From: Streptomyces sedi
GTDB taxonomy: Bacteria > Actinomycetota > Actinomycetes > Streptomycetales > Streptomycetaceae
Direction: 5' to 3'
Length of the DNA: 64,000 nt
Assembly: GCF_006335015.1 (NCBI RefSeq)
Contig: NZ_VDGT01000002.1
Span: 248,001 to 312,000 of the forward strand
The notes under the pieces are model-generated. The model was given only the letters and a program-made list of their open reading frames with translations, had not been told where the DNA came from and did no database searches. Shown in pieces: positions 11,171-42,120 of the stretch. Made by a program: the position numbers and the translations under genes. Position 1 is the stretch's first letter; the number at the start of each line of letters is the position of its first letter.

Positions 11171-12330
11171 ACGGAACGTCGGCGACTGGTCAAGCGAGCA
11201 CAGGCCCAACGTCTGACCAGACGGCTGAACAGGTTCCTGACCAGTTCCTTGACCAGGGGAGGCTTGACCAGGGGAGGAGGGAACGGTCGGAGTCGGTGGC
11301 CCCCGGCTATCTGGTGCTCAGGCGCGGCCGGTTCTCGGCGCGGCTGGCGGTGGGGCCGCTGCTGGTCCGCGGCCTGCTGGCGCTGCTCGTGCTGGCGCTG
11401 TCCGCGCTGGCCCTCACCCTGGGGCGCGCGCAGGTCACCCTCCCCGAGCTGGTGTCCGTGCTCGGCGGCCGGGAGCAGGGCACGCTGCGCACGGTGGTTC
11501 TGGAGTGGCGGCTGCCGCGCGTCGTCGCCGCCGTGCTCTTCGGCGCCGCGCTCGGCGTCAGCGGCGCCGTCTTCCAGTCCCTGACCAGAAACCCCTTGGG
11601 CAGCCCCGACGTCATCGGGTTCAACTCGGGTGCGTTCACCGGAGTGGTGGCCGCCGTGCTGCTGGGCGCGACCAGCTATGTCGCGCTCTCCGCCTGGGCG
11701 TTGCTGGGCGGGGTGACAACCGCGGTACTGGTCTACGTGCTCGCTTTCCGGCGGGGTCTCTCCGGGTTCCGCTTCCTCATCGTCGGCATCGCGGTCGGGA
11801 CGTTCCTGTCGTCGCTCAACTCGTGGTTCTTCGTGAAGGCCGAGCAGCAGCAGGCGCTGCGGACCGCGGTGTGGGGCGCCGGGACGCTGACCCGGGCCGA
11901 CTGGACCACGCTGGCGCTCGCGGGGGGAGCGGCGCTCGCCGTCGCCGCCGTGCTGCCGCTGGCCGGGCGGTGGCTGCGGCAGCTGGAGTTGGGCGACACC
12001 ACGGCCGCGGCGCTCGGCGTGCCGGTCGAACGGGCCAAGGCCGTCCTCGTGTTGCTCGGCGTCGTGACGACGGCGCTGGTCACGGCTTCGGCCGGGCCGA
12101 TCTCGTTCGTCGCGCTGGCCGCGCCGCACATCGCCCGCCGCATCACCCGGCGGGGCGGCTCCGTCGATCTGCCCTCCGCCGCCCTGGTCGGCTCCCTGCT
12201 GCTGCTCGCCTCCGATGTCGCCGCCCAACACGCCATCTCCGGCGTCGTGTTGCCGGTCGGCGCGGTGACCGTGTGCTTCGGCGGCCTGTATCTGGTCTGG
12301 CTGCTGGTCGTGGAGTCGAGACGCTCGTGA
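11167..12330 (+). CDS. FecCD-family iron-siderophore permease 2
   Basis: The GTG at 11167 overlaps the stop of permease 1 (GTGA) and yields 387 residues with about ten membrane helices from residue 58. It has the family phrase 'VSGAVFQSLTRNPLGSPDVIGF' (shown only as the motif SLTRNPLGSP) and 'ASAGPISFVALAAPHIARR'. It pairs with permease 1 in the inner membrane channel. Its N-terminal tail of about 45 residues is rich in Asp-Gln pairs because the DNA there carries four TGACCAG copies, an expansion of the oligomer seen across this window. The membrane part is normal and presumably functional. Confidence 0.92.
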   Translation: MNGTSATGQASTGPTSDQTAEQVPDQFLDQGRLDQGRRERSESVAPGYLVLRRGRFSARLAVGPLLVRGLLALLVLALSALALTLGRAQVTLPELVSVLGGREQGTLRTVVLEWRLPRVVAAVLFGAALGVSGAVFQSLTRNPLGSPDVIGFNSGAFTGVVAAVLLGATSYVALSAWALLGGVTTAVLVYVLAFRRGLSGFRFLIVGIAVGTFLSSLNSWFFVKAEQQQALRTAVWGAGTLTRADWTTLALAGGAALAVAAVLPLAGRWLRQLELGDTTAAALGVPVERAKAVLVLLGVVTTALVTASAGPISFVALAAPHIARRITRRGGSVDLPSAALVGSLLLLASDVAAQHAISGVVLPVGAVTVCFGGLYLVWLLVVESRRS

Positions 12331-12527
12331 CGGACGACGAGCGGAACAGCGGGGCGCGACGACGGGTGCGGCAACGGGCCGAACGGCGTGAGCCACTAGG
12401 TCTTACCAGTTGAAAGCCTCTACCCGTTGACAGCAGCCCTGACCAGTCGAGCGAACCTCACCAGTGGAACGGACCTGACAAAGTGAACGGCACTTACCAG
12501 TCGAACCGGCAGGGGGAAGGAGCCCCC
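12331..12527 (+). promoter_or_regulatory. Leader between permease and ATPase genes with clustered ACCAGT motifs
   Basis: This 197-base gap holds four T(T/G/C)ACCAGT copies (near 12402, 12443, 12462 and 12495), separated by unrelated sequence. A weak in-frame GTG at 12483 could lengthen the ATPase by 15 residues, but no ribosome site precedes it. I see no hairpin, so the ATPase is probably co-transcribed with the permeases. Confidence 0.5.
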
Positions 12528-13316
12528 GTGCCGGGGCTCTCCGCCCGGGAGCTGCGCGTGGGCTACGGCGCCCGGGACGTACTCCCCGGGCTGGACTTCG
12601 ACGTCCCCGACGCCGAACTCACCGTCATCATCGGCCCCAATGCCTGCGGCAAGTCCACCCTGCTGCACGCGCTGGCCCGACTGCACGCCGCGCGCGGCGG
12701 CAGCGTGCTGCTGGACGGGAAGGACATCCGCCGGTACGGCGCCAAGGAGGTCGCCCGCCGCGTCGGCCTGCTGCCGCAGTCCTCGACGGCGCCCGACGGC
12801 ATCACCGTCCACGACCTGGTCTCCCGGGGCCGCTACCCGCACCAGAGCGTGTTGCGCGGCTGGTCGCGCGAGGACGCGCGGGCGGTGGAGGACGCCCTCC
12901 GCTCCACCGGCGTCCTGGACCTCGCCCACCGCCGCGTCGACCAACTCTCCGGCGGACAGCGCCAACGCGTCTGGATCGCGATGGCGGTGGCCCAGGAGAC
13001 CCCGCTGTTCCTCCTCGACGAGCCGACCACCTTCCTGGACATCGGCCACCAGGTCGAGGTGCTGCGGCTGATGCGCGAGCTGCGGGAGGCGGGCCGGACC
13101 GTCGTCGCCGTCCTGCACGAGATCAACCACGCCGCCCGCTATGCCACCCATCTCGTCGCCATGCGCGAGGGCCGGATCATCGCCAGGGGCGACCCGCGCG
13201 ACATCGTCACGCCCGAGCTGATCGGCACCATGTTCGGGCTGACCGCCAGGGTCCTGGTCGACGACGTCACCGGCGCCCCCGTCGTGGTCCCCGACGAGCC
13301 GATCCGCCCCGCCTGA
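12528..13316 (+). CDS. Iron-siderophore ABC transporter ATPase (FecE-like)
   Basis: I chose GTG 12528 because GGAAGGAG ends five bases upstream; the protein is then 262 residues, the usual size. Walker A is GPNACGKST, the signature is LSGGQRQRVWIAMA, Walker B is LFLLDEPTTFLD, and the switch His lies in 'VVAVLHEINHA'. It powers import of ferric siderophore through the two FecCD permeases. With the binding lipoprotein and reductase on the other strand it completes an uptake and release system. A GTG at 12483 is an alternative start. Confidence 0.93.
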   Translation: MPGLSARELRVGYGARDVLPGLDFDVPDAELTVIIGPNACGKSTLLHALARLHAARGGSVLLDGKDIRRYGAKEVARRVGLLPQSSTAPDGITVHDLVSRGRYPHQSVLRGWSREDARAVEDALRSTGVLDLAHRRVDQLSGGQRQRVWIAMAVAQETPLFLLDEPTTFLDIGHQVEVLRLMRELREAGRTVVAVLHEINHAARYATHLVAMREGRIIARGDPRDIVTPELIGTMFGLTARVLVDDVTGAPVVVPDEPIRPA

Positions 13317-17000: not shown

Positions 17001-17432
17001 ATGAGCGGTGCCGAGCGGGTCGAGAGCTGGGGCGTGCCCTGGGAGGAGGGGCACGGTTACGTGCAGGCGGTGCGGCGCGGGGACACCATCTACCTCTCCG
17101 GGCAGGTTTCGCACGACGGGGAGACGCTGGTCGCGCCGGCGCCTCTCGACGACTCGGGGAGGGTCACCGACACCGCCAACACGGGGGAGCAGCTGCGCCA
17201 GGTGTACGCCAACGCGGCCGAGCTGCTGGGGCGCTTCGGCGCCTCCCTGGACGATGTCGTCGAGGAGGTGATCTACGCCGTCGACCTGGACCAGATCCAC
17301 GCCTCCGGTGGGCCGGTGCGCAAGGCGGCCTACGGCCGGCCCGACCCGCGGGTCGCCAGTACGGTGATCGGTGCGTCGCGGCTGGCCTTCCCCGAGCTGC
17401 TGGTCGAGGTCAGGTTCGTCGCCAGGGTCTGA
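17001..17432 (+). CDS. RidA/YjgF-family protein
   Basis: ATG 17001 follows GGAGAGAAG and gives 143 residues. The protein has the RidA fold signature: 'DTIYLSGQVSHDG' near the start, 'EQLRQVYANAAELLGRFGASLDDVVEEVIYAVD' in the middle and 'RPDPRVASTVIGASRLAFPELLVEVRFVARV' at the end (motif positions about 30-140). True RidA enzymes hydrolyse reactive enamine/imine intermediates using a conserved Arg. The Arg of 'RPDPR' precedes the expected region, but this is a subfamily variant whose deaminase activity I cannot confirm. Divergent from the GlxA regulator, a common pairing. Confidence 0.88.
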   Translation: MSGAERVESWGVPWEEGHGYVQAVRRGDTIYLSGQVSHDGETLVAPAPLDDSGRVTDTANTGEQLRQVYANAAELLGRFGASLDDVVEEVIYAVDLDQIHASGGPVRKAAYGRPDPRVASTVIGASRLAFPELLVEVRFVARV

Positions 17433-17634
17433 GGCGTCCCGGTCGGCCCGGCGCGGCCCGGCGCGGCCGGGCCGACCGGGACGACCGGCTCGTTCGGTCC
17501 GCGACACCGAGCGAGAAACCGCCCCCGTGTCGTGCTTGTGTGCCAACTCCGTGCGCATAATCGCCACTTGGCCCGCCTGGCATATGCGGCCCGGCGCGGC
17601 GACCGTGCGAAGCAGTCTTCAGGAAGGGCAGCTC

Positions 17635-18429
17635 ATGAACGAGAACACCGGTGACGCCATCGACACGACGGTGCCGCACTCCGCCCGGATCTGGAACTAC
17701 TGGCTCGGTGGGCGCGACAACTACGAGGTGGACCGGGTGGCCGGCCGGGCGTTCGAGGCGCGTTTCCCCGGCATCACCCTCGGCGCGCGCGCCGCCCGCT
17801 ACTTCCTCGCCCGCGCGGTGCGCCACCTGACGGAGGAGACCGACGTGCGGCAGTTCCTCGACATCGGCACCGGGCTGCCGAGCGTCGACAACACCCACGA
17901 GATCGCGCAGCGCGTCGCGCCGGAGTCGCGCACCCTCTACGTGGACAAGGACCCACTGGTCATCGCCCACGCGCGGGCGTTGTTGACCAGTAGCCCGCAG
18001 GGCGCCACGCGCTATCTGCTGGCCGACATCCGCGAGCCGGAGGTCATCCTGGAACGGGCGGCGGAGCATCTCGACCTCTCCCGCCCGACCGCGCTGATGC
18101 TGATGGGCATCCTCGGCCACATCGAGGACATCGAGGAGGCGCGTTCCCTCACCCGCCGACTGGTCGAGGGGCTGCCGCCCGGCAGCTATCTGGTGCACTA
18201 CGACAGCACCAGCACCAGCGAGGACTACGTGGCCGCCATCGAGGGCTACAACGCGCAGGCACCCGTGCCGTACATCCTGCGCGACCCGGAGGAGTTCCGG
18301 CCGTTCTACGACGGCCTGGAGCTGCTGGAGCCGGGACTGGTCTCCTGTTCCCGCTGGCGCCCCGACACGCTGGCGCTCGGCCTCCCCGAGGAGGTTCACC
18401 AGTACGGCGCGGTGGCCTACAAGAGGTGA
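17635..18429 (+). CDS. SAM-dependent methyltransferase, DUF574 (Methyltransf_19) family
   Basis: ATG 17635 follows AGGAAGGG. The 264-residue protein has the hallmark N-terminus 'PHSARIWNYWLGGRDNYEVD' and SAM motif 'FLDIGTGLPSVDNTHE' at about 78-93, followed by 'YVDKDPLVIAHA'. This family is strongly expanded in streptomycetes; natural substrates are mostly unknown and many members are linked to secondary metabolism or development. It is a single gene followed by a very strong hairpin. Confidence 0.93.
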   Translation: MNENTGDAIDTTVPHSARIWNYWLGGRDNYEVDRVAGRAFEARFPGITLGARAARYFLARAVRHLTEETDVRQFLDIGTGLPSVDNTHEIAQRVAPESRTLYVDKDPLVIAHARALLTSSPQGATRYLLADIREPEVILERAAEHLDLSRPTALMLMGILGHIEDIEEARSLTRRLVEGLPPGSYLVHYDSTSTSEDYVAAIEGYNAQAPVPYILRDPEEFRPFYDGLELLEPGLVSCSRWRPDTLALGLPEEVHQYGAVAYKR

Positions 18430-18578: not shown

Positions 18579-20063
18579 CTACGCGCCCAACTGCTCCGCC
18601 GCCAGCGCGTGGGCCGCGTCCCGGGTCGCCGGGTACAGGTCCCGGTAGATCCGGTAGAGCCGGTCGTACCGTTCCGCCGCCGCCGGGTCGGGTTCCACGG
18701 TGTGCGCGACCGGGTTCCACGCCGCCATGTCGCCGGCGCCGGCCAGACCGGTGCCGACGGCCGCGAGGAACGCGTCGCCGTAGGAGGCGCCGATGGTGTG
18801 GCGCGGGATCTCCTGCGGCCGGCCGGTGACGTCGGAGACGATCCGCGTCCACAGCTCGCGCGCGCCGCCGCCGACGGCCACCAGCCGGTCCAGCTCCCCG
18901 CCGGACGCGGCCATCACCTCCAGGTTGTGCCGCACGCCGAACGCCGTGCCCTCCAGCGCCGCCCGGTACAGATGGCCCCGCCCGTGGCGGAGCGTCAGCC
19001 CCAGCACCAGGCCCCGCGCGTCGGGGTCGAAGACCGGCGTGCGTTCGCCGGCGAAGTACGGCAGCATCACCAGCCCCTCGGCGCCAGGTCCCGCCGCGTC
19101 CGCCTCCTCGACCAGGGTCTCGAACGCCGCGCCGGTGAGGTCCCGCAGCCAGCCCGTGACCGCGCCCGAGGTGGCCATCCCGCCGGCCAGGCAGGAGGTG
19201 CCGGGGAAGACGCCCCTGGTGGTCCACATCAGGGGTGTCGGTTTCGGCGTGCCGACGACGTTGACCAGGAACATCGTGCTGCCGTACATGAGCATCAGGT
19301 CGCCGGGCGCGCCCACCCCGGCGGCCGTGGCCTCCGCCCAGGCGTCGACGGTGCCTGCCACCACGGGCGTGCCGGCAGGCAGGCCGGTCGCCTCGGCCGC
19401 GGCCGGCGTGATCTCGCCGGCGACCTCGCCCGGCCACAGCAGCCGCGGCCACTCCATGCCGGGGGCGATCTCCTCGCACCACTCCTCGATCCAGGCCCCC
19501 CGGGCCGGATCGTAGAGCGGCGTTGACTGGCTGGCGGAGTGGTGGTCCAACACGTAGGCGCCGGTCAACCGCTTTACCAGAAAGGAAGTGGCCATAAACC
19601 AGCGGCGGGTGGCCGCCCAGACCTCGGGCTCCTCCTCGCGCACCCATTCCAGCTTCGGACCGACGGCCTGACTGGTCAACAACGAGCCGCAGCGAGCCAG
19701 TACCGTCTCCTCGCCGTAGCGGGCGTGCTGCGCGGCGATCTGCCGGCCGGCGCGGGTGTCCACGCCGTAGAGGATCGCCGGACGGAGCGGGTTGTCGTCG
19801 GCGTCGGCCGGCAGCAGACAGGGGCCGATGCCGCTGACGCCGACCCCGGCGATCTCCTCGCCGGCCGCCCGGTCGAGCAACTCCCGTGTGAGGGCCAGGA
19901 AGTCGGCCCACCACACGTCCAGCGCGTCGTGCTCGACCCACCCGGGGCGCGGCGTCGCGGTGACGTGGCCCCGGGTGGCCTGGGCGACCAACTCCCCGTC
20001 GGGGCGCACCAGTACGCCCTTCGAAGCGGAGGTGCCGATGTCGATGCCGAGCAGCAGGGTCAC
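18579..20063 (-). CDS. FGGY-family pentulose kinase (proposed D-ribulokinase)
   Basis: The GTG at 20063 overlaps the isomerase stop (GTGA), giving 494 residues. Family landmarks are 'LLGIDIGTSASKGVLV' at the N-terminal phosphate loop, 'AGVGVSGIGPCLLPAD', and the C-terminal ATP lobe 'GGELDRLVAVGGGARE'. FGGY kinases phosphorylate sugars such as xylulose, ribulose, fuculose and glycerol. Coupling to a fucose/arabinose-type isomerase points to a ketopentose. Because the locus has no ribulose-phosphate epimerase or fuculose-phosphate aldolase, D-ribulose, whose 5-phosphate feeds straight into the pentose phosphate pathway, is the simplest substrate. This is inference from context. Confidence 0.88.
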   Translation of the reverse strand: MTLLLGIDIGTSASKGVLVRPDGELVAQATRGHVTATPRPGWVEHDALDVWWADFLALTRELLDRAAGEEIAGVGVSGIGPCLLPADADDNPLRPAILYGVDTRAGRQIAAQHARYGEETVLARCGSLLTSQAVGPKLEWVREEEPEVWAATRRWFMATSFLVKRLTGAYVLDHHSASQSTPLYDPARGAWIEEWCEEIAPGMEWPRLLWPGEVAGEITPAAAEATGLPAGTPVVAGTVDAWAEATAAGVGAPGDLMLMYGSTMFLVNVVGTPKPTPLMWTTRGVFPGTSCLAGGMATSGAVTGWLRDLTGAAFETLVEEADAAGPGAEGLVMLPYFAGERTPVFDPDARGLVLGLTLRHGRGHLYRAALEGTAFGVRHNLEVMAASGGELDRLVAVGGGARELWTRIVSDVTGRPQEIPRHTIGASYGDAFLAAVGTGLAGAGDMAAWNPVAHTVEPDPAAAERYDRLYRIYRDLYPATRDAAHALAAEQLGA

Positions 20064-21505
20064 ACCCGCTCCTTCGCCTGCTCGGGGCCGGCGGCCGTGC
20101 CGAAGCCGTCCCAGCGCACGCCCAGCAGCCGGCAGACGGCGCGCAGCGCGTCGACCTGGTCGCCGGGCACGGCGTGCAGGTGGTTGGAGCCGAAGCGGCC
20201 GAGGAACTCCTCGGCGGGCGCCTCCAGTCGGGCGAACGCGTGCGGCCACTCGTAGGTGGAGGCCCGCATCAGCCGCTCGTTGGTGGCGTCGTCGTAGGTC
20301 TCCAGGCTGCCGCGCGTCACCTGCATCCGGTACTCGCCGTCCAGCCGCGTCAGCCGGGCGAACGTCAGGTCGCCCGGCGCGGCGAGGTGCTGCACGGAGG
20401 CGCCGCCGGCGGGGAAGTAGAAGACCTCCGGGTGGAAGTTGACGCGGGAGAGGTTCTCCGCCGGGTCGTCGGAACGTGCGGCGTACCAGGTGGCGTGCTG
20501 ACCCGAGTTGCACAGGTCCCACAGGTCGCGGTCGGCGTGGTAGTGCCGCACGTCGGCGAAGAGCACCGGGTCGCCGGTGAGCAGCTTCAGCAGCTGCATC
20601 GTCAGCGCGCCGTCCATGTCCGCCTCGGTGGCGGTGACATGGGTGGCCTTCGGCCCCTCCCAGTCGTAGGGGTCGTTGAGGAACGCCTCGGCGACGTCCA
20701 TCGTGCAGAAGTGCGTGGTCAGTTCGGGCTGACCCTTGATGCCGGAGAAGTCGAGGTTCCACTCGTCGATCAGCTCGCGCATCGCGTAGTACGAGCGGAT
20801 CTGACGCTCCAAGAGTTCGGGGGTGAGCTGCTTGCCGTCGTAGTGGACGCCCGCCGCGTGGCGTTCGATCCACTCGCGTCCGGCGCGGACCCGCGCGGGG
20901 TCGGCGTTGTCGGCGCGGCGGACGATCTCCCACTGGTCGATCTCCTCGACGTCCACGCCGAACTGGCTCATCCACTGGTCAGGGTTGGCGACCGCGGTGT
21001 ACATGCCCATGGGTCGGCCGCCGATCCGGCCGAAGGTGGAGCCGCGCAGCCCCTGCACGGCGGCGGCGGCCCGGACCTGGGTGAGGATGCGCGTGACGAC
21101 GGCGGGGTCCTTCAGGTCGCCCCAGGCGCGGGAGTGGACCCGCCCGATCTGGTCGAGACCGCCGCCGCCCGCGAGCATCCCGACCATGCCGGGGAACTGC
21201 GGGTCGATGTTGGCGACCAGCAGCAACGGCCCCGGCGTGGCCTCGGCGGCGAGCATGGTGAAGTGCGGGAACGTCCACACCGAGTGGTGCATCACGGTGA
21301 GGTCGGGGTGCTGGTCGGCCAGCCAACGGGCCTGGGAGGTGGCCAGTGCGTTGGTGCTGACCTGCTCGGGCGCGGTGATCACCTCGTGACCGGCCGCCGT
21401 GAGCACGGCGGCCAGTTCGCGGCCGGCGCGGTCGATGTGGTCGGTGACGTCGCGGTGGACGAAGTCGCGGCCGTCGGAGAGGGAGAGCAGGCCGATACGT
21501 GCCAT
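20060..21505 (-). CDS. L-fucose/L-arabinose isomerase-family protein (proposed D-arabinose isomerase)
   Basis: The 481-residue protein is of the FucI/AraA superfamily but shorter than FucI (about 590). It has an N-terminal Rossmann-like domain ('VMHHSVWTFPHFTMLAAEA', 'LLVANIDPQFPGMVGMLAGGG') and C-terminal active-site region: 'THVTATEADMDGALTMQLL' supplies a candidate metal-ligand Glu, 'VLFADVRHY' the Asp and 'NSGQHATW' the His. FucI enzymes also convert D-arabinose to D-ribulose. The start is unambiguous (ATG with GGAGGAAAA upstream). It is coupled to the kinase and belongs to the sugar-import operon. D-arabinose specificity is inferred from neighbours, not from residues. Confidence 0.85.
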   Translation of the reverse strand: MARIGLLSLSDGRDFVHRDVTDHIDRAGRELAAVLTAAGHEVITAPEQVSTNALATSQARWLADQHPDLTVMHHSVWTFPHFTMLAAEATPGPLLLVANIDPQFPGMVGMLAGGGGLDQIGRVHSRAWGDLKDPAVVTRILTQVRAAAAVQGLRGSTFGRIGGRPMGMYTAVANPDQWMSQFGVDVEEIDQWEIVRRADNADPARVRAGREWIERHAAGVHYDGKQLTPELLERQIRSYYAMRELIDEWNLDFSGIKGQPELTTHFCTMDVAEAFLNDPYDWEGPKATHVTATEADMDGALTMQLLKLLTGDPVLFADVRHYHADRDLWDLCNSGQHATWYAARSDDPAENLSRVNFHPEVFYFPAGGASVQHLAAPGDLTFARLTRLDGEYRMQVTRGSLETYDDATNERLMRASTYEWPHAFARLEAPAEEFLGRFGSNHLHAVPGDQVDALRAVCRLLGVRWDGFGTAAGPEQAKERV

Positions 21506-21560
21506 GGTGCGTTTTCCTCCGCGGGGGTTGAACGACGCGTGACGCGTCGGTGTGGGCGGT

Positions 21561-21595
21561 CACGCCACGGCGCCGTCGTGGGGCGCCGTGGCGTG
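21561..21595 (-). other. Intercistronic 14-bp hairpin
   Basis: CACGCCACGGCGCC and its exact complement flank a seven-base loop in the gap between the second permease and the isomerase. In the minus-strand transcript it could stabilise the upstream transport mRNA or partly terminate, lowering kinase and isomerase output relative to the transporter. Confidence 0.65.
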
Positions 21596-21602
21596 TCGGG
21601 CG

Positions 21603-22424
21603 TCAGGACTTCATGCCCGAGGTCTTGATGGACTCGACGATCTGGCGCTGGAAGGCGAAGAACAGCGCCAGCATCGGGAGCGCCGCGACGGTGGCCGCGG
21701 CCAGGATGTAGTTCCAACTGGACGCGTACTGCGTCTGGAAGGAGGCGATGCCGAGCTGGACGACCGTCAGCTCCTCGCTACTGGTCGCGACCAGTGGCCA
21801 GACGAAGGCGTTCCAGTTGGCCAGGAAGAAGAAGACGGTCAACGCGGCCAGGATCGGCTTCGACATGGGAAGCACGATGCTCCAGTAGATCCGCCAGTGG
21901 CCCGCGCCGTCGACGATCGCCGCCTCCTCGATCTCGCGCGGAAAGCCGAGATAGAACTGGCGCAGCAGGAAGATGCCGAACGCGTTGAAGATGGCGGGGA
22001 TGATCAGGCCGGCGTAACTGTCCAGCAGGTGCAGTTCCTTGGCCACCAGGAAGAGCGGGATCAGCACCACGGGCGCGGAGACGAGCAGCGTCGCGAAGAT
22101 CGAGAGGAAGATCGGCTCGCGCCCGGGGAACTTCAGCCGGGCCAGCGCGTAGGCCGCCATCGAGTGGAAGAGCAGCGCCGCGAGGGTGATCACGGCCGAG
22201 ATGAAGAAGCTGTTCCACATGTAGCGGGCGAACGGCACCTCGGTGAAGACGTAGACGAAGTTGTCGAACGTCACCTCACGCGGGATGAGTTGGCCGTCGG
22301 TGACGCTGTCGCGCGGCTTGAGCGAGGAGGTCGCCATCCACAGCACGGGGAAGACGGTGATCGCGGAGAGCACGATCGCGACGACGGTCAGCCCGGTGCG
22401 CCTGGCGCGGTTCTCAGCTGTCAT
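21603..22424 (-). CDS. Carbohydrate ABC transporter permease, MalG type
   Basis: The 273-residue protein has six membrane helices and the permease EAA loop 'EIEEAAIVDGAGHWRIYWSI' at about 175-195, which docks an ATPase. Its start overlaps the end of the preceding permease gene by 11 bases, typical of MalF/MalG-type pairs. It should import the sugar or oligosaccharide captured by the lipoprotein encoded upstream. No ATPase gene is present in the operon; streptomycetes commonly energise such importers with the shared MsiK ATPase. Confidence 0.94.
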   Translation of the reverse strand: MTAENRARRTGLTVVAIVLSAITVFPVLWMATSSLKPRDSVTDGQLIPREVTFDNFVYVFTEVPFARYMWNSFFISAVITLAALLFHSMAAYALARLKFPGREPIFLSIFATLLVSAPVVLIPLFLVAKELHLLDSYAGLIIPAIFNAFGIFLLRQFYLGFPREIEEAAIVDGAGHWRIYWSIVLPMSKPILAALTVFFFLANWNAFVWPLVATSSEELTVVQLGIASFQTQYASSWNYILAAATVAALPMLALFFAFQRQIVESIKTSGMKS

Positions 22425-23376
22425 TGTCGAACCTCCCGCCGCGCGTGACCGCGAAGATCACCGCGGAGAACGCGACCATGATCAGCACCAGGAACGAGCC
22501 CATGGCCGAGGCGTAGCCGTACTCGCCGAAGCCGAACGCCTGTTGGTAGATGTAGAAGATCGCCAGCGAGGTGCCGTTGGCGGGACCGCCGTTGGTCAGC
22601 ACGAAGATCAGGTCGAGTCCGCCGGTGATGGCGGCGACGGTCGACATCAGCAGCACGAAGAAACTGGTCGGGCGGAGCAGTGGCCAGGTGATGTTGCGGA
22701 AGGTCGACCAGGGGCCGGCGCCGTCGATGCGGGCCGCCTCGTAGTACTCGGCGGGAATGTCCTGGAGGCCGGCCAGGAAAATGATCATGTAGTACCCCAT
22801 CATCACCCAGACCATCACGGCGATGACGGAGAACAGGGCGAACTTGGGGTCGCCCAGCCAGGACTCGCCCTCCATGCCGAGCGAACGCAGCGCGCGGTTC
22901 ACGACGCCCACCTGGTCGTCCAGCATGAACTTCCACAGCAGGCCCACCACGACCAGGCTGATGACATACGGCAGGAAGAGCGCCGTGCGGTAGACCGCCA
23001 TGCCGGGCAGCTTCTGCTTGATCAGCAGCCCGAGCCCCAGGCTCACGCAGAACAGCACCGGGACCAGCACCACCACGTAAAGCCCGGTGATGCGCATCGA
23101 GTCCCAGAACAGCGGGTCGTTCATCATGCGCTCGTAGTTGCCGAGCCCGACCCAGGTGTAGGAACCGAAGCCGCTCACCTGGAAGAAGCCCAGGGCGATC
23201 GAGAGCACCATGGGGACGGCGACGAAGATCAGCAGCCCGATCACGTCCGGCGCCAGGAACAGCCCGGCCGCCACCCACTCGCGGTGCTTCCTGCTCAGCC
23301 GCCGACGCTCCCGGCGACGCGGCTCCGCGCCCCCTGGGGCGTCCGTGCGCGCCTCGGGCGCGATGGTCTCGCTCAT
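22414..23376 (-). CDS. Carbohydrate ABC transporter permease, MalF type
   Basis: The 320-residue protein has a basic cytoplasmic N-terminus (about 40 residues rich in Arg), six membrane helices and the EAA loop 'YYEAARIDGAGPWSTFRNIT' at about 215-234. It overlaps the binding-protein gene by four bases (ATGA) and the next permease by 11, so all three are translationally coupled. Together the two permeases make the membrane channel of the proposed arabinan-fragment importer. Confidence 0.94.
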   Translation of the reverse strand: MSETIAPEARTDAPGGAEPRRRERRRLSRKHREWVAAGLFLAPDVIGLLIFVAVPMVLSIALGFFQVSGFGSYTWVGLGNYERMMNDPLFWDSMRITGLYVVVLVPVLFCVSLGLGLLIKQKLPGMAVYRTALFLPYVISLVVVGLLWKFMLDDQVGVVNRALRSLGMEGESWLGDPKFALFSVIAVMVWVMMGYYMIIFLAGLQDIPAEYYEAARIDGAGPWSTFRNITWPLLRPTSFFVLLMSTVAAITGGLDLIFVLTNGGPANGTSLAIFYIYQQAFGFGEYGYASAMGSFLVLIMVAFSAVIFAVTRGGRFDNDS

Positions 23377-24767
23377 ATGAGACTCGCCCCCTCATAGCTT
23401 TTGACGTAGGCCTGGATGGCGGCCTCGGCGCGCTCCGCCTGGCCGGCCACGTCGCGGCCCGCGAGCATGGAGCCCTGGATGGCGTCGGAGAGCGCCTTGT
23501 AGACCACCGGCGGGTAACGCGGCTCGCCCCGCCCGCCGGGGAAGATCTCGTCGCGGAACTTCTTCATCGCCCAGAAGTCGTAGCCGCCGGACGCCTCGCC
23601 CAGCTCCAGCACGGACTCCCGGGGCGCCATGTCCGTCTTGGCCACGGTGCACCAGTCGACCATCCGGTCGATGCAGCGCTCGTCCATCGTCCCCAGCGCC
23701 CAGGCGCAGAACTCGGCCGCCGACTCCGGGTCCTTGCCCTGCGCGTTGGCGCAGAAGGCCCAGCCGCCCATCGCCGTCGCGTAGGAACCACCCTCCGGGA
23801 CGGGGAGCTTGAAGACGCCGTACTCGAAGTCCGGCGCGTGGGCGCGGAAGCTGGCGACCTCCCAGATGCCGGACTGCCACATCGCGACGTTGTCCCCCTG
23901 AAAGGCGTTCAACAGGTCGCCCGCCGCCGGCATGGTGCGCGGGGCGATGCCGAACTGGACCGCGTCCTGCCAGAGTTGCAGCGCCTGCCGGGTGGCGCGT
24001 GAGTTCACGGTCACCGAGCCGTCCTCGGCGAAGACCTCGCCGCCGCCCTGCCACATCCACGGGTACCAGGTGAAGTTCTGGTAGTAACCGGGCTCGGTGT
24101 CGAAGGCCAGCCCCGCGCGTGTGTTCCCGCGCAACCGGTCGCCCACGTCGAGGAGTTGGTCCCAGGTCGTGGGGATGTCCCCCTCGGAGAGACCGGCCCG
24201 TTCGAAGGCGGAGACCGAGTAGTAGATCGCCAGCGGCTCCACCTCCATCGGCAGCGCGTAGACCCTGCCGTCCACGGTGCGGGTCTCCAGCGAGTCGCCG
24301 TAGTCCGCGATCGCCTCCCGGTCCATGTACGGGGTCAGGTCGGTCAGTACCCCGCCGTTGTAGTAACGGAGGAAGTCACCGGGGGAGATCAGGAAGATGT
24401 CCGGCCCCGACTCGGCGGCGAACGCGGACGGCAGCTTGGCGCCGTCCGTGTAGGTCGCGTTGGGGATGAAGACCAGTTCGATCTGCCGGTCGTGCGTGGC
24501 GTTCCACTGGTCAACCAGGTCGATAAACCACTGGGACTGCCGTTGCACGGCCGGGTCCTCGGTCCTCTGGGGGGCGTACTGGTTCCAGAAGGTCAGCTTC
24601 CCCCCGCTGCCACCACCCGAGCCGCACCCCGTGAGCAGTGCCGGAGAGGCCGCCGCCGTCGCCACCCCCGCCGCCCCGGCGAGGAAGCCCCGGCGGGAGG
24701 CGCCCCGACCGGGCGCGCGGCCGGGTGGTCGGCCGGTGCGCGCGACAACGTTGTCGTGCTGGAGCAT
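23373..24767 (-). CDS. Sugar ABC substrate-binding lipoprotein (family 1), Tat-type leader
   Basis: The 464-residue protein has a leader with twin arginines (ASRRGFLAGAAG) followed by a lipobox LLTGC at about residues 44-48 and a Gly/Ser linker, so it should be a Tat-exported lipoprotein. The mature part is a family 1 solute-binding fold ('KLTFWNQYAPQRTEDPAVQR') with many Trp residues in the cleft region (for example 'NFTWYPWMWQGGGEVFAEDG'), usual for oligosaccharide binding. It is the specificity component of the transporter in this operon. Confidence 0.92.
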   Translation of the reverse strand: MLQHDNVVARTGRPPGRAPGRGASRRGFLAGAAGVATAAASPALLTGCGSGGGSGGKLTFWNQYAPQRTEDPAVQRQSQWFIDLVDQWNATHDRQIELVFIPNATYTDGAKLPSAFAAESGPDIFLISPGDFLRYYNGGVLTDLTPYMDREAIADYGDSLETRTVDGRVYALPMEVEPLAIYYSVSAFERAGLSEGDIPTTWDQLLDVGDRLRGNTRAGLAFDTEPGYYQNFTWYPWMWQGGGEVFAEDGSVTVNSRATRQALQLWQDAVQFGIAPRTMPAAGDLLNAFQGDNVAMWQSGIWEVASFRAHAPDFEYGVFKLPVPEGGSYATAMGGWAFCANAQGKDPESAAEFCAWALGTMDERCIDRMVDWCTVAKTDMAPRESVLELGEASGGYDFWAMKKFRDEIFPGGRGEPRYPPVVYKALSDAIQGSMLAGRDVAGQAERAEAAIQAYVKSYEGASLI

Positions 24768-24800
24768 GGTCCGTGCTCCTGTCCTTAGGTGTCGGTAGAG

Positions 24801-24827
24801 GTCCCGGGCGGCGGCTCCGCCCGGGAC
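24801..24827 (-). other. Intra-operon hairpin between DUF2961 and binding-protein genes
   Basis: GTCCCGGGCGG pairs perfectly with CCGCCCGGGAC across a five-base loop, eight bases past the stop of the DUF2961 gene. It may act as an attenuator or as a 5' stabiliser for the binding-protein message, which usually needs higher expression. Confidence 0.6.
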
Positions 24828-24834
24828 GGGTCGT

Positions 24835-25938
24835 TCAGTCCACTTCGATGTCCAGCAGGCCGGGCGCGGGCGGCCTGGCCCCCGGAGCGCTCGGCGCGTC
24901 CAGGTAGAACAGCGCGGTCGAGGCGATGTCGTCGCTGGTCGGCCGGTACCGGTGCGGCAGCCCGTTGTGGTGCCCGGGGCCGATGCCCAGGCTCTGCACG
25001 GTCACCCGCAGGTCCTCGGCGAACCGCACCGGGTCCGGGATGTGCCAGCGGTACATCCCGAACCGCTGCTGGCTCAGGTACAGCCCGTCGGGACGCAGGA
25101 TCTGGTTCAGCCCGAGGTACGGCGTCGAGAACGCGGTGTACCCCTCGCCGGTGATGTCGAAGTTCCACGCGCCGCCGAAGTAGTCCTCGGTGCCGGTGCC
25201 GCAGATGGTCGGGTACGCGTCGTCCCCGTCGAGATAGAACTTCACCTCGCCCTCGCCCCACCAGCCCGGGCTGTTGACACCCCAGGCCAGATAGGTGCCC
25301 ACGTAGTGCCCGGCGCCGCGCACGCCCTCCAGGAGGGTGTGCGTCTCGCCCGCCGGCACCGGGTGGCTGCGCCGCCACACCGCGTGGAACCAGGAGGTGT
25401 CCTCGTTCCGTTCGTCGGACAGCTCGTAGTCGATCTGGTAGTACAACGTGACGGTCTCGGCCGACAGGTTCTCCAGGGTGATCCGCGCCGCGTCGCGGAA
25501 CGGCATCGGCCAGTAGGCGTTGAAACCCCCGTTGGGGTTGGCGGCCACCGGCAGCGAGGAGACCTGGCTGAAGGTGTTCCAGCCGTTGCAGAAGAAGTCG
25601 CCGAGCGGGGTCTCGACCGCCGGCTCCTCCTCGCCCTCCCAGTACATCCGCAGCAGCGTGCCGCGCCAGGCCCGGTGCGGGGCCGTGGTGCACCAGATGT
25701 GGGTGATCTTGCCGGGGCCCTGGATGTCGGCCAGGGTGGCGGTCTCGCCCGGGGCGATCTCGATGCTGGGGGAGACCTTCCACCCCCGCCCCAGCAGGCT
25801 CGCCGCGCGGGCGCCCGTTCCCTCGTCGGCCCTGCCGCCCGCGCCCTTCGCGCCGGTGAAGTTCTCCGCGCTGATGGACCGGGTCACGGCCCGGCTCCGC
25901 TGGGCCAGCCCGTCGAGTCCAACTCCCAGGTGCGTCAT
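24835..25938 (-). CDS. DUF2961 glycoside hydrolase, GH172-like (proposed exo-alpha-D-arabinofuranosidase)
   Basis: The 367-residue protein has no signal peptide and matches DUF2961: 'IQGPGKITHIWCTT' at about 72-85, 'PLGDFFCNGWN' at 111-121, 'WWGEGEVKFYLDG' at 226-238 and 'CGTGTEDYFGGAWNF' at 246-260. DUF2961 is now the core of family GH172, whose known members act on difructose anhydride and on D-arabinofuranosides. Glu229 and Glu251 sit where the GH172 catalytic acids are expected, though I could not align them formally. It is first in the operon with the ABC importer, 51 bases behind an operator. A cytoplasmic site implies that imported oligosaccharides are trimmed inside. Confidence 0.85.
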   Translation of the reverse strand: MTHLGVGLDGLAQRSRAVTRSISAENFTGAKGAGGRADEGTGARAASLLGRGWKVSPSIEIAPGETATLADIQGPGKITHIWCTTAPHRAWRGTLLRMYWEGEEEPAVETPLGDFFCNGWNTFSQVSSLPVAANPNGGFNAYWPMPFRDAARITLENLSAETVTLYYQIDYELSDERNEDTSWFHAVWRRSHPVPAGETHTLLEGVRGAGHYVGTYLAWGVNSPGWWGEGEVKFYLDGDDAYPTICGTGTEDYFGGAWNFDITGEGYTAFSTPYLGLNQILRPDGLYLSQQRFGMYRWHIPDPVRFAEDLRVTVQSLGIGPGHHNGLPHRYRPTSDDIASTALFYLDAPSAPGARPPAPGLLDIEVD

Positions 25939-25989
25939 CGTTGGTAGGTCACCCCTTGGACCGTTTGATAGGGCGTCAAGCCCCCGGAT

Positions 25990-26005
25990 TTGAAATCGAT
26001 TTCAA
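25990..26005. promoter_or_regulatory. LacI-type operator O1, perfect palindrome
   Basis: TTGAAATCGATTTCAA is an exact 16-base palindrome with central CG, the standard shape of a LacI/GalR operator. It is 51 bases before the DUF2961 start, so bound regulator would block the minus-strand operon. Related sites occur at 26100, 29022 and 29089. Confidence 0.85.
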
Positions 26006-26027
26006 GTGGAACTGAGAGTGTCGCGCG

Positions 26028-26047
26028 GTGTTTTAGCAGTAAAACAC
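26028..26047. promoter_or_regulatory. AT-rich inverted repeat in the lacI-operon divergon
   Basis: GTGTTTTA-GCAG-TAAAACAC forms an exact 8-base inverted repeat in an unusually AT-rich patch between operators O1 and O2. It could be a second regulator's site or a promoter-proximal structure; no family assignment is possible. Confidence 0.45.
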
Positions 26048-26099
26048 TGGTCCGAGTTGGGCGGTCACCCTCGGCTCCGGTGAGCTTGAACGGCTGCGC

Positions 26100-26115
26100 T
26101 TGAAATCCTTTTCAC
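26100..26115. promoter_or_regulatory. LacI-type operator O2, imperfect
   Basis: TTGAAATCCTTTTCAC matches O1 at 13 of 16 positions and lies 71 bases before the lacI-type start, in keeping with autoregulation of the regulator gene. Confidence 0.7.
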
Positions 26116-26186
26116 GCGAACATAGGGTCGCCCTACAGCGGTGTCAAGAGCCCGGTCGGCGAACCGGGGGTGGGGATGCGGAGCGT

Positions 26187-27260
26187 ATGACGACCATCAC
26201 GGATGTGGCTCGGGCCGCTGGCGTTTCGCCGGCCACCGTCTCGCGGGTCTTCAACGGCGGCCGGGTCACCCCCGAGCGCGCGGCGAGGGTGCGACGCGCC
26301 GCGGCCGAGCTGGGGTTCGAGCCCAACCGCGTCGCCCAGTCGCTGCGTAAGCAACGTGGCAGCGTCATAGGACTGCTCATTCCGGACATCGAGAACCCGT
26401 TCTTCACCTCGCTGGCGCGCGGCGTCGAGGACGCCGCCCAGCAGACGGGCCTCTCCGTGGTGTTGTGCAACACCGACGAGGACATCGACAAGGAGCGCCG
26501 CTACCTCGGCATAGCGCTCGCCGAGCAGATGGCCGGAGTCATCGTCGCCGCCGCCTCCCGCACCCAGACCGACCTCTCCCCGCTCGCCGCCCGCGGGATG
26601 CCGGCGGTGGCCGTGGACCGTAGACCGCGCGGCGCCCTCGTGGACGCCGTACTGGTGGACAACCAGTACGGGGGCGAGGCCGCCACCGAACACCTGCTGC
26701 GCGCCAGGTACCGGCGGATCGCCTGCGTCACCGGGCCCGAGGGCGCCTCCACCTCGGAGGAACGACTGGCCGGCTACCGCTCCGCGCTCCGCGACGCGCT
26801 CGCCGACGGCACGCTCACCCCCGAGGACGGCGACGACCCGCTGACCGCCTACGTGCGCTACGCCGACTTCAAGGTCGGCGGCGGCCGGGCCGCCATGGCC
26901 GACCTGCTGGCGATGGAACGCCCGCCGGACGCCGTCTTCGTCGCCAACAACCTGATGGCCGTGGGCGCGCTGGAGGTGCTGCGCGAAGCGGGGGTGACAC
27001 CGCCGGAGTTCGGGGTGCTCTCCTTCGGTGGTGTGCCCTGGGCAGGACTGGTAAGGCCAAGCCTGACCACTGTGGAACTCCCTTCCTACGAGCTGGGTTT
27101 CACGGCGGCCAAGCTGCTCCAGGAACGCATCGCCGGCTCGGAGAAGGCGCTTCAGACCGTGGTGCTGCGCACCGGGCTGAGCGTCCGCGACAGCACCGGG
27201 GGCCCGCACGACGACGCCGAGGGCCAGGGGCGCCTCCGGGCGCCGTCCCCGCTCGGATAG
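26187..27260 (+). CDS. LacI-family transcriptional regulator of the arabinan-type locus
   Basis: ATG 26187 gives 357 residues opening 'MTTITDVARAAGVSPATVSR', the LacI helix-turn-helix, followed by hinge helix 'RVAQSLRKQ' and a two-lobe ligand-binding domain ('VIGLLIPDIENPFFTSLARG'). An upstream in-frame ATG at 26100 would lie inside operator O2 and lacks family sequence. The gene is divergent from the transport operon and convergent with the secreted DUF4185 gene, and both flanks carry closely related palindromes, so it probably represses the whole locus until a sugar inducer binds. Confidence 0.93.
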   Translation: MTTITDVARAAGVSPATVSRVFNGGRVTPERAARVRRAAAELGFEPNRVAQSLRKQRGSVIGLLIPDIENPFFTSLARGVEDAAQQTGLSVVLCNTDEDIDKERRYLGIALAEQMAGVIVAAASRTQTDLSPLAARGMPAVAVDRRPRGALVDAVLVDNQYGGEAATEHLLRARYRRIACVTGPEGASTSEERLAGYRSALRDALADGTLTPEDGDDPLTAYVRYADFKVGGGRAAMADLLAMERPPDAVFVANNLMAVGALEVLREAGVTPPEFGVLSFGGVPWAGLVRPSLTTVELPSYELGFTAAKLLQERIAGSEKALQTVVLRTGLSVRDSTGGPHDDAEGQGRLRAPSPLG

Positions 27261-27278
27261 CGGGAACGGCGCCCGGAG
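27234..27278. terminator. 20-bp bidirectional hairpin between convergent genes
   Basis: Arms at 27234-27253 and 27259-27278 pair over 20 bases with one mismatch around the loop CGGAT. The hairpin overlaps the lacI stop codon and ends 20 bases before the stop of the secreted DUF4185 gene, so it can end both transcripts. Confidence 0.75.
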
Positions 27279-27297
27279 CGCCCACGCGGTGCGGCGC

Positions 27298-28989
27298 TCA
27301 GCCGCCGTAGTAGACCTCCAGCTCGGCGATGGAGGTGAACGTGCGGTCGCCGCCGGGCGCGCCGATCACCCGCACCCCGTCGCCCGCGGTCTCCGGGAAG
27401 GTCAGCGTGTAGGAACGGTTCGGCCCCGCCGAGGCGTCGCCCGGGTACGGCGGCTCCACCGTCACCGCGCCCGCGTCCGTCCATACACCGTCCTGCCGCA
27501 CCTCGACGCGGGGAGCGTCGGTGAACCAGCCGCCGTCCCCGAACATCTCACCCGTCGTGTAGACGACCCGGTCCACCGTGTACTCCCGGGGCCAGGTGTA
27601 GCCCCACCAACTCTCGGTTTTCCGCTCGTCGTTCCAGTCGTCCTGACTGGCCGTCAGTTCGCCGTCGTTGTAGACCGAGGGCCCGCCGAAGTGGATCGCG
27701 CGCTCGACGCCCGTGGTGCCGGGTTCCGTCGCCAGGTTGTGCGCCGGGTCGGCCGCGTTCTCCGGCTCCGTCTCGACCCGCGGTTCGACGTGCATCTGGC
27801 GCAGCGAGTAGGTGTAGGCCCAGTGCTCGCCCGGCGGGAAACCCCCGCCGCAGGGGCAGACGTTGGACTGTATCCACATCGAACGGCCGTCCTCGCTGAT
27901 GTACTTGGACGGGATCGTCACGCCGTAGCCGCCGTGCTTGGTCGTCGGCCACGGATAGCCGCCGAAGTCCCGCGAGTCGAAGCGCTCCCAGGGGCCCCAG
28001 GGCGTCGGCGACTCGTAGAACTCGAAGGTGTACTCCGTCCACGACGTGTAGAGGTAGCGGTCGAGCCCCTCGTTGTAGACGACGCCGCCCTGGCTGAGGA
28101 CCGTGGTGTTCTCCACCCGTCCCTCGCCGAACACGTCCTGGTAGATGTGCCGGTCGTCGTGGAGCACCGGCGAACGGTCGGCGATGTCGGCCGACCAGGT
28201 GGGCTCGCCCGAGTCGTCGGTGCCGCTCACGAACTCCCAGGCGCCGCGGTCCGTCACGGCGTCCTTCGGCACCCGGCCGAGGTACAGGTCGACCGGGTCG
28301 GGCACCCGGTCGTTGAACGAGTCGCGCCAGTTGTGGTCAAGTCCGTAGGCGTAGACGTAGTCGTCCGGCGCGTTGGCGTAGTCCTTGCCGTAGTCCAGGA
28401 ACATCACGGTGGTAAACACCCCGTCGCCGAACATCGGCGCCTCGGTGTCCCACTCCCAGGTCTGCCCCTTGTCGGTGGAGCGGGCGATGGTGGCGGCCGG
28501 GGCGTCGTTGAAGTCGAACGCCAGGTCCTGGACGGCGAGATAGAGGTCGCCGTCCACGCAGGCCATGCCGGTGGGCTTGCGGGAGTGCTCGGGGGTCCAC
28601 GCCTGGCTGACCTCGGTGGCCAGTTGTTCACCTGTCAGTTGACCAGGTGTCCCGGTGATTCGGGCGACCCCGATGTCGCTGTAGACGTCGCCGAAGCCGA
28701 CGCCGTCGCCGTAGGCGGTGTACACGTGGTCGTCATCGGCCCAGCAGTTGGGCCACAGGTCGCCGTGGTTGACGTTGTCCCCGACGGAGGGGGCGCCGAC
28801 GGTGGCGGCGGGGTCGATGTCGACGGTGGAGAAGAAGTCGCCTACGGGGGCGTTCGCGGGGGCGTCCGAGCGCGCCGCGGCGCCGTCGCCGCTGGGCGGT
28901 GCCGCCTGGCTGGACGCGAGCACGGTGGCGGTGAGCACCCCGCACAGGCTCAGGGACAGCACCAGGCGGGTCCCGGTACTTCTGCGCAT
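27298..28989 (-). CDS. Secreted DUF4185 protein, GH183-like (proposed endo-D-arabinanase)
   Basis: ATG 28989 follows GGAGG by six bases (a TTG one codon earlier is less likely) and gives 563 residues. A Sec signal occupies residues 1-30 (LVLSLSLCGVLTATVLASS). Residues about 60-415 match DUF4185: 'WPNCWADDDHVYTAYGDG' at 79-96, 'KGQTWEWDTEAPMFGDG', 'DDYVYAYGLD', 'LYLGRVPKDAVTDRGAWEF', 'ESPTPWGPWERF'. DUF4185 contains the endo-D-arabinanases now classed as GH183. The last about 140 residues look like a beta-sandwich carbohydrate-binding (discoidin/CBM32-like) domain. Two operators like O1 lie just upstream, linking it to the importer operon. Function is predicted by family and context. Confidence 0.82.
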   Translation of the reverse strand: MRRSTGTRLVLSLSLCGVLTATVLASSQAAPPSGDGAAARSDAPANAPVGDFFSTVDIDPAATVGAPSVGDNVNHGDLWPNCWADDDHVYTAYGDGVGFGDVYSDIGVARITGTPGQLTGEQLATEVSQAWTPEHSRKPTGMACVDGDLYLAVQDLAFDFNDAPAATIARSTDKGQTWEWDTEAPMFGDGVFTTVMFLDYGKDYANAPDDYVYAYGLDHNWRDSFNDRVPDPVDLYLGRVPKDAVTDRGAWEFVSGTDDSGEPTWSADIADRSPVLHDDRHIYQDVFGEGRVENTTVLSQGGVVYNEGLDRYLYTSWTEYTFEFYESPTPWGPWERFDSRDFGGYPWPTTKHGGYGVTIPSKYISEDGRSMWIQSNVCPCGGGFPPGEHWAYTYSLRQMHVEPRVETEPENAADPAHNLATEPGTTGVERAIHFGGPSVYNDGELTASQDDWNDERKTESWWGYTWPREYTVDRVVYTTGEMFGDGGWFTDAPRVEVRQDGVWTDAGAVTVEPPYPGDASAGPNRSYTLTFPETAGDGVRVIGAPGGDRTFTSIAELEVYYGG

Positions 28990-29021
28990 CAACTGCCTCC
29001 GGGGGGTGGGGTGGCGGGCGT

Positions 29022-29037
29022 TTGGAATCGATTTCAG
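29022..29037. promoter_or_regulatory. LacI-type operator O3
   Basis: TTGGAATCGATTTCAG differs from O1 at two positions and lies 33 bases upstream of the DUF4185 start on the minus strand, overlapping the expected promoter. Confidence 0.78.
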
Positions 29038-29088
29038 GGGAAGGTAAGAGGCTTGCGGGGGTGAGTCAAGGCTTTGGACGCCCCCGGG

Positions 29089-29104
29089 AGGAAATCGATT
29101 CCAG
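29089..29104. promoter_or_regulatory. LacI-type operator O4
   Basis: Read on the minus strand this is CTGGAATCGATTTCCT, sharing the GGAATCGATTTC core of O3. Its centre is 67 bases from that of O3, a spacing compatible with looping by a tetramer or with two dimers. Confidence 0.7.
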
Positions 29105-42024: not shown

Positions 42025-42120
42025 GGAGGCGGGCGGGTGCCTGGTGGCCCCCACGGTCTTCAACACCGATGCGGCCGGGAACCCCGGTCGGGTGGGTTCG
42101 ATTCCCATACGCCTCCGCCA
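42025..42120 (+). tRNA. selC: tRNA-Sec, anticodon TCA
   Basis: The 96-base gene starts GGAGGCGG and ends CGCCTCCGCCA with encoded CCA. The acceptor stem pairs over at least seven bases, the T-arm contains TGGGTTCGATTCCCA, the anticodon loop is CTTCAAC (anticodon TCA, decoding UGA), and a long extra arm (GCGGCCGGGAACCCCGGTCG region) is present. Length and long variable arm are typical of selenocysteine tRNA. It completes the Sec system with selD, selA and selB in this window. Confidence 0.95.

Follow-up and report, generated by a model that had tools for sequence, protein, structure and literature searches.

Layout and predicted operators of the locus

We analysed a 64,000-nucleotide stretch of the Streptomyces sedi genome (contig NZ_VDGT01000002.1, positions 248,001 to 312,000; hereafter the window), focusing on a candidate D-arabinan utilisation locus within it. 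The locus is a 10.5-kb block of a 6.6-Mb genome and combines a six-gene operon with a divergent lacI gene and a gene for a secreted DUF4185-like protein, the eight genes together occupying window positions 18579-28989. Read along the minus strand from 25938 to 18579, the operon encodes a GH172 enzyme, a binding lipoprotein, two permeases, an isomerase and a kinase. A single operon is likely because adjacent genes overlap or sit less than 100 bases apart. The genes and predicted operator sites are as follows:

18579-20063, minus strand: FGGY sugar kinase, proposed D-ribulokinase (FGGY_N and FGGY_C over cut-off)
20060-21505, minus strand: fucose-isomerase-type isomerase, proposed D-arabinose isomerase (Fucose_iso_N1, N2 and C over cut-off)
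21603-22424, minus strand: permease 2 of an ATP-binding cassette (ABC) sugar importer (BPD_transp_1 over cut-off)
22414-23376, minus strand: permease 1 of the ABC sugar importer (BPD_transp_1 over cut-off)
23373-24767, minus strand: sugar-binding lipoprotein (SBP_bac_1 and SBP_bac_8; twin-Arg-like start and LTGC lipobox, by eye)
24835-25938, minus strand: leaderless GH172 enzyme, proposed exo-alpha-D-arabinofuranosidase (DUF2961; residues E229, E251, N259)
25990-26005, no strand assigned: operator 1, palindrome TTGAAATCGATTTCA, between the GH172 gene and lacI
26100-26115, no strand assigned: operator 2, a weaker palindrome (pattern match in the window)
26187-27260, plus strand: LacI-family regulator (LacI and Peripla_BP_3, Pfam)
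27298-28989, minus strand: secreted divergent GH183-like protein, proposed endo-D-arabinanase (marginal DUF4185 match, predicted fold and catalytic residues; D78, D96, R223, Q301)
29022-29037, no strand assigned: operator 3, upstream of the secreted-enzyme gene
29089-29104, no strand assigned: operator 4, upstream of the secreted-enzyme gene

The sugar ABC importer, fucose-type isomerase, FGGY kinase and LacI regulator named in the initial annotation are all present, with Pfam matches over cut-off. No gene for an importer ATPase was found within the block; in many streptomycetes, a single importer ATPase serves several importers. There is also no aldolase gene among the eight genes, and three class II aldolase domains are encoded elsewhere in the genome.

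Predicted shared palindromes link the operon, lacI and the secreted-enzyme gene. The pattern TTGRAATCGATTYCA, with up to three mismatches, has nine strand matches in the window, compared to a mean of 0.46 and a maximum of 4 in 100 shuffles. Eight of the nine are the block's four sites, and the ninth (three mismatches) lies outside the block at 42093. Across the whole genome, TKGRAATCGATTYCA with at most one mismatch gave seven strand matches at four distinct sites, three of them in the block, while a reversed control pattern gave none at the same stringency; the operator sequences earlier described as shared across the 10.5 kb were thus borne out. The fourth genomic site (C19:64748-64763, at about 9748 of L030) falls between genes, upstream of another cluster that, by eye, we take to resemble 2-deoxy-scyllo-inosose synthase and aminotransferase genes, and was excluded from the regulon.

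Predicted enzymes of D-arabinan breakdown

The earlier DUF2961 assignment is strongly upheld: the GH172 protein matches the Pfam DUF2961 profile with 306.9 bits against a cut-off of 27, and inspection of its N-terminus by eye revealed no signal peptide, in keeping with the leaderless enzyme of the initial annotation. No other DUF2961 protein was found in the genome. Its best solved relative is ExoMA1, a crystallised exo-alpha-D-arabinofuranosidase (PDB 8ic8; E 2.2e-148), with 62% identity in the alignment, and its similarity to ExoMA1 is far greater than that to the GH172 member alphaFFase1 (498 vs 144 bits). In alphaFFase1 the two catalytic Glu residues are E270 and E291 (PMC8605356), and their counterparts in the alignment are E229 and E251 of the window enzyme. 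In ExoMA1, Asn253 blocks fructose where alphaFFase1 has Gly299 (PMC10509167). Asn259 of the window enzyme occupies the Asn253 position and is invariant in all four aligned rows; because it stands where the fructose-excluding Asn sits in ExoMA1, a fructan substrate is disfavoured. ExoMA1 and the window enzyme are therefore alike in overall identity, catalytic Glu pair and fructose-blocking Asn, and sequence comparison found no function-changing difference between them. We propose from this resemblance that the window enzyme is an exo-alpha-D-arabinofuranosidase of the ExoMA1 type.

The secreted protein is more divergent. By profile, its earlier assignment to DUF4185 holds only marginally: the catalytic part taken alone reaches 41.1 bits where the cut-off is 39.5, and the genome search gave 40.6 bits. 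Predicted fold and catalytic residues place it better. Neither a phmmer search of the protein against PDB sequences nor a sequence search with a shorter relative returned a match. A search with the family profile brought up only sialidase or Asp-box proteins (five matches), and sequence searching by itself therefore did not place the protein. The AlphaFold2 model (predicted local distance difference test score 80.6, predicted template modelling score 0.76) superimposes on EndoMA1 (8ic1) with Z 29.5 and a root mean square deviation of 2.8 over 282 residues at 19% identity, in a structural comparison (VIA-align) covering mainly model residues 17-362, and a five-bladed beta-propeller was recovered. 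The next fold matches were 4hbs (Z 20.7) and GH43 enzymes (up to 19.7), and Foldseek also ranked EndoMA1 first.

Residue-level comparison points the same way. A profile alignment against canonical GH183 proteins gave an hhalign probability of 98.2 over 157 columns, a region that excludes both catalytic Asp residues. These correspond to D78 (nucleophile Asp33 of EndoMA1) and D96 (acid/base Asp51), spaced 18 residues apart in both proteins; the nucleophile match is an ungapped run of 22 residues with 8 identities, the next best offset having 6. We aligned the window protein with 15 of the 16 open reading frames (ORFs) found for its family (alignment A2; L048 excluded), which are 49 to 96% identical to it. 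D78 is invariant in all 16 rows, as are the counterparts of EndoMA1 D51 and R198 (window D96 and R223). The protein thus resembles EndoMA1 (GH183, PDB 8hhv/8ic1) in fold, in both catalytic Asp residues and in Arg198, and differs in its overall identity of about 19%, in a Gln at the position of Glu243, in the Leu292-Tyr293 column, which is Asp-Phe in most rows of its family, and possibly in the kind of C-terminal domain. Because the third conserved Glu is replaced by Gln, we call it GH183-like rather than a plain GH183 member. From the model and these residues, we consider it a GH183-like protein of divergent type whose function is very probably that of an endo-D-arabinanase.

The initial annotation spoke of one secreted enzyme, which was incorrect: the genome encodes another secreted DUF4185 protein, a canonical one (182 bits), at C50:244193-245098 (L022 9172-10434), unlinked to the block and about 70% identical to those within related Streptomyces loci. 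No operator with up to three mismatches occurs in the 19 kb around this gene, and we therefore did not count it in the regulon.

The isomerase scores 86 bits against the FucI equivalog of NCBIfam, far below the cut-off of 775. Searches of the genome found no second Fucose_iso_C protein and no match to AraA (PF02610). Alignment with solved fucose isomerases showed that the isomerase carries the ATE and FADVR motifs, which we take to bind metal. The best NCBIfam match of the kinase is XylB, at 289 bits against an equivalog cut-off of 380, and a gene elsewhere in the genome lies above this cut-off (424 bits). For a D-arabinan locus of Microbacterium, a route through isomerase and kinase that involves no aldolase has been proposed (PMC10509167), and the same aldolase-free conversion of D-arabinose to D-ribulose 5-phosphate suggested in the initial annotation agrees with the gene content here. 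In Dysgonomonas gadei grown on D-arabinan, a predicted fucose isomerase was the most abundant carbohydrate-active enzyme (PMC10115798).

Related loci and genome distribution

Similar loci are widespread in actinobacteria. Scanning 84,980 genomes with the GH172 alignment yielded at least 543 relatives, of which the best 80 loci were kept; gene content was counted in the 54 of these longer than 20 kb. Genes were named by their best phmmer query with set score thresholds, and distant homologues may therefore have been overlooked. The nearest named locus among those listed belongs to Streptomyces zhaozhouensis, with a GH172 protein 98% identical to that of the window. The gene set recurs in other actinomycetes: LacI was found in 44 of the long loci, a binding protein in 41, a kinase in 37, canonical GH183 in 19, GH116 in 18 and the window's secreted type in 14.

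Two types of isomerase occur at GH172 loci, the window type (ISO) and another (ISO2). Either type was present in 45 of the 54 long loci (ISO in 10, ISO2 in 35) and neither in 9, with no locus holding both; the chance of zero overlap, 4e-6, is descriptive only and ignores the kinship of genomes. Homology between the two types extends over most of the sequence (hhalign probability 99.4, 26% identity), and a model of ISO2 has a fold like those of fucose and arabinose isomerases. Alignment A3 holds 11 of the 14 ISO ORFs plus the window-genome protein, and A4 holds 16 of the 42 ISO2. Among the best 80 loci, the 14 with ISO all belong to Streptomyces or Jiangella, while the Microbacterium loci with a detected isomerase carry ISO2. 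Two Streptomyces loci (L016 and L017) have the gene set with ISO2 and with both the divergent protein and a canonical Tat-like GH183 (Pfam was run on the L017 protein).

Operator-like sites accompany these genes. In related Streptomyces loci, a copy of GAAAAGGATTTC or GAAATGGATTTC lies about 100 bases from operator 1, and in the Microbacterium locus L091 the operator core is identical to that of the window locus. Allowing up to two mismatches to GAAATCGATTTC, we counted 76 sites in the 56 kb flanking the GH172 starts of the best 80 loci, compared to 163 in 1,379 kb elsewhere, part of the latter adjoining other genes of these loci.

We also asked how these proteins are distributed across genomes. 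Among 396 genomes of the phylum, 59 gave any match to the isomerase, and 12 besides the window's carry one 68-71% identical. Six such regions were read: three contain a GH172 that is more distant (about 150 bits), together with a binding protein and a permease of similar kind, and in the other three GH172 was not recognised. In L131, L133 and L134, from another family of the phylum, the window-type isomerase likewise stands beside a distant GH172 and a similar importer. The secreted protein, whole or in part, was found in 9 of 293 genomes of the order, and a close GH172 in 7 of these 9 as compared to 8 of the 284 others (Fisher p 6e-9, descriptive only, since related genomes are not independent). 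This count assumes that both searches covered the identical 293 genomes, and omits five of 20 GH172-positive genomes in which all matches were below 84 bits (G009, G039, G044, G053 and G102). In four of the seven genomes with both genes (G123, G231, G239 and G240), the two lie on separate contigs or, in G239, 7 Mb apart, some as fragments, so the association is not only physical. On G239:C1 (L010 and place 1351075), the secreted protein (246 residues, one internal stop) and the GH172 (119 residues matched) both appear decayed.

At L063 15779-18629, an ABC ATPase (two matched stretches) and a BPD_transp_2 permease lie between isomerase and kinase, as in ribose-type importers, and perhaps provide a second route for free D-arabinose. 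Around the block itself, a SAM-dependent (S-adenosylmethionine-dependent) methyltransferase-like gene, presumably of a kind frequent in Streptomyces, forms the left border (window 17371-18429, by eye). Further out, two permease genes and an ATPase gene at window 9998-13316 resemble an ABC importer by eye, one that we assume to be of the siderophore type.

Proposed pathway and alternative readings

Taken together, these results make it probable, in our judgement, that the block is a D-arabinan utilisation locus of a Streptomyces, with predicted enzyme activities, substrates, inducer and shared ATPase. The secreted GH183-like enzyme would cut alpha-D-arabinofuranosyl chains outside the cell, and the lipoprotein and two permeases, powered by an ATPase encoded elsewhere, would import the resulting oligosaccharides. 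Cytoplasmic GH172 would trim these to D-arabinose, which the isomerase would convert to D-ribulose and the FGGY kinase to D-ribulose 5-phosphate, feeding the pentose phosphate pathway. Control of the operon, of lacI itself and of the secreted enzyme would rest with a LacI repressor, acting through the shared palindromes and released by a pathway sugar. Walls of mycolata would be the natural source. The evidence reaches a likely means to digest D-arabinan and stops short of an attack on living mycolata.

The locus is a variant of a D-arabinan system published in 2023, and the pathway and most of its parts were already known. The utilisation locus of Microbacterium arabinogalactanolyticum, induced by D-arabinose and by mycobacterial wall extract, likewise gathers a secreted GH183-type endo-enzyme, an ABC sugar importer, a leaderless GH172, an isomerase and a kinase in one cluster (Shimokawa et al., 2023; PMC10509167). 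LacI and an identical operator core are also present in the Microbacterium loci read here. The window locus differs in its isomerase subfamily (about a quarter identical), in its divergent endo-enzyme with Gln for Glu243 and in its importer, which is of another subfamily and only weakly similar (binding protein 72-84 bits among the loci listed). DUF2961, DUF4185 and a predicted fucose isomerase are also combined in the D-arabinan locus PUL42 of D. gadei, a member of another phylum (Al-Jourani et al., 2023; PMC10115798). The Microbacterium paper (PMC10509167) mentions putative clusters in further Actinobacteria, and the divergent clade may already stand in its trees. Our literature search, with most subscription journals outside its reach, returned no description of a D-arabinan locus from Streptomyces; a GH183 gene is among those tabulated in one Streptomyces genome paper (PMC12199506), and a Saccharopolyspora paper names GH172 (PMC10145562).

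Several observations weigh against a D-arabinan locus of this kind. At full length, the Pfam search does not list DUF4185 in the secreted protein, its sole listing being a possible C-terminal galactose-binding-like domain below threshold (18.1 vs 27.8 bits). AraH2 of M. tuberculosis (8an0), an endo-D-arabinofuranase, matches the model with a Z of only 19.5; as this is no better than GH43 enzymes, the closeness of fold is to EndoMA1 in particular. MAFFT with EndoMA1 failed to align the nucleophile Asp, leaving it three columns off because a 3-residue gap was placed between nucleophile and acid/base Asp, and we took the ungapped 22-residue match over this placement. The position of Glu243 is held by Gln301 in the window protein and by Gln in all 16 rows of A2, as compared to Glu in all 14 canonical rows of A5 (13 of 25 canonical GH183 ORFs plus the window-genome protein). 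The E243Q variant of EndoMA1 is nearly inactive (PMC10509167); in DgGH4185b, E381A broadly retained activity, so the third Glu is dispensable there (PMC10115798). Recognition may be altered in the secreted protein near subsites -2 and -3, at which Glu243 of EndoMA1 steadies Arg198 (PMC10509167). As to distribution, two of the nine genomes with the secreted protein (G077 and G147) have no close GH172, and two of the seven with both genes hold fragments only.

A further difficulty is GH116 (PF04685), which has no match in the window genome. The Microbacterium locus includes a leaderless GH116 exo-beta-D-arabinofuranosidase, and the scheme proposed for it requires this enzyme for beta-linked ends (PMC10509167). 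Given its absence from our genome search, the window locus works like the Microbacterium type without being a full example of it, and in this organism beta-linked ends may stay intact or be removed by a different enzyme. GH116 was not found near GH172 in any of 22 long Streptomyces or Actinacidiphila loci, compared to 18 of 32 other long loci. The order as a whole does not share this lack: among 14 other genomes of the order that carry GH172, 5 encode a GH116-type domain scoring over cut-off (one barely, at 27.1 bits), and in two of the five it lies less than 4 kb from GH172.

These points bear on where the polymer comes from. The pathway could be right and its natural source another D-arabinofuranose (D-Araf) glycan, such as D-Araf oligosaccharides that other bacteria bear on pili or lipopolysaccharides. 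If the substrate lacked beta-linked ends, both the missing GH116 and the divergent endo-enzyme would fit, as would the Gln in place of Glu243. We regard such a source as rather unlikely: mycolata are abundant in soil, and the second, canonical GH183 in the genome counts against it. The GH183 enzymes that have been studied act on arabinogalactan or lipoarabinomannan (PMC10509167, PMC10115798), while alpha-1,5-D-Araf oligosaccharides do occur on the pili of P. aeruginosa PA7 and D-Araf motifs in a few lipopolysaccharide structures (PMC10115798).

Two other readings depart further from D-arabinan. The isomerase and kinase might serve another aldose (L-fucose, D-xylose or L-arabinose) and lie beside the glycosidase by chance, as the Pfam name of the former, the XylB match of the latter and the three of six regions in which no GH172 was recognised near isomerases of about 70% identity would allow. 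Both proteins, however, fall far below the FucI and XylB equivalog cut-offs, the block has no aldolase and the genome no AraA, a better XylB is encoded elsewhere, and the pair shares an operon with GH172 and recurs beside it in related loci, all of which makes this explanation very unlikely. Least probable of all, by a little, is that the substrates of GH172 are alpha-D-fructofuranosides (difructose dianhydrides) and that the locus handles fructan by-products. The family does include alphaFFase1, and in Streptomyces davawensis a putative GH172 gene for a difructose dianhydride pathway lies next to GH91 and GH32 genes (PMC8605356). Yet the window enzyme is much closer to ExoMA1 than to alphaFFase1 and carries Asn259 where the latter has Gly299, the block's eight genes include neither a GH91 nor a GH32 gene, and fructose needs no aldose isomerase.

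If utilisation of D-arabinan is the function of the locus, some streptomycetes can draw nutrients from a polymer characteristic of the walls of mycobacteria and corynebacteria, and a trophic link between Streptomyces and mycolata becomes testable. It is conceivable, if on balance somewhat doubtful, that the secreted protein represents a distinct endo-D-arabinanase subfamily, marked by the invariant Gln and by altered subsite recognition (e.g., of linear or uncapped D-Araf chains), and that some streptomycetes, having a locus free of GH116 and a second subfamily of D-arabinose isomerase, exploit D-arabinan in a manner unlike Microbacterium. The divergent endo-D-arabinanase clade and the second candidate D-arabinose isomerase subfamily would, if D-arabinan is indeed the substrate, also offer tools to dissect arabinogalactan and lipoarabinomannan.

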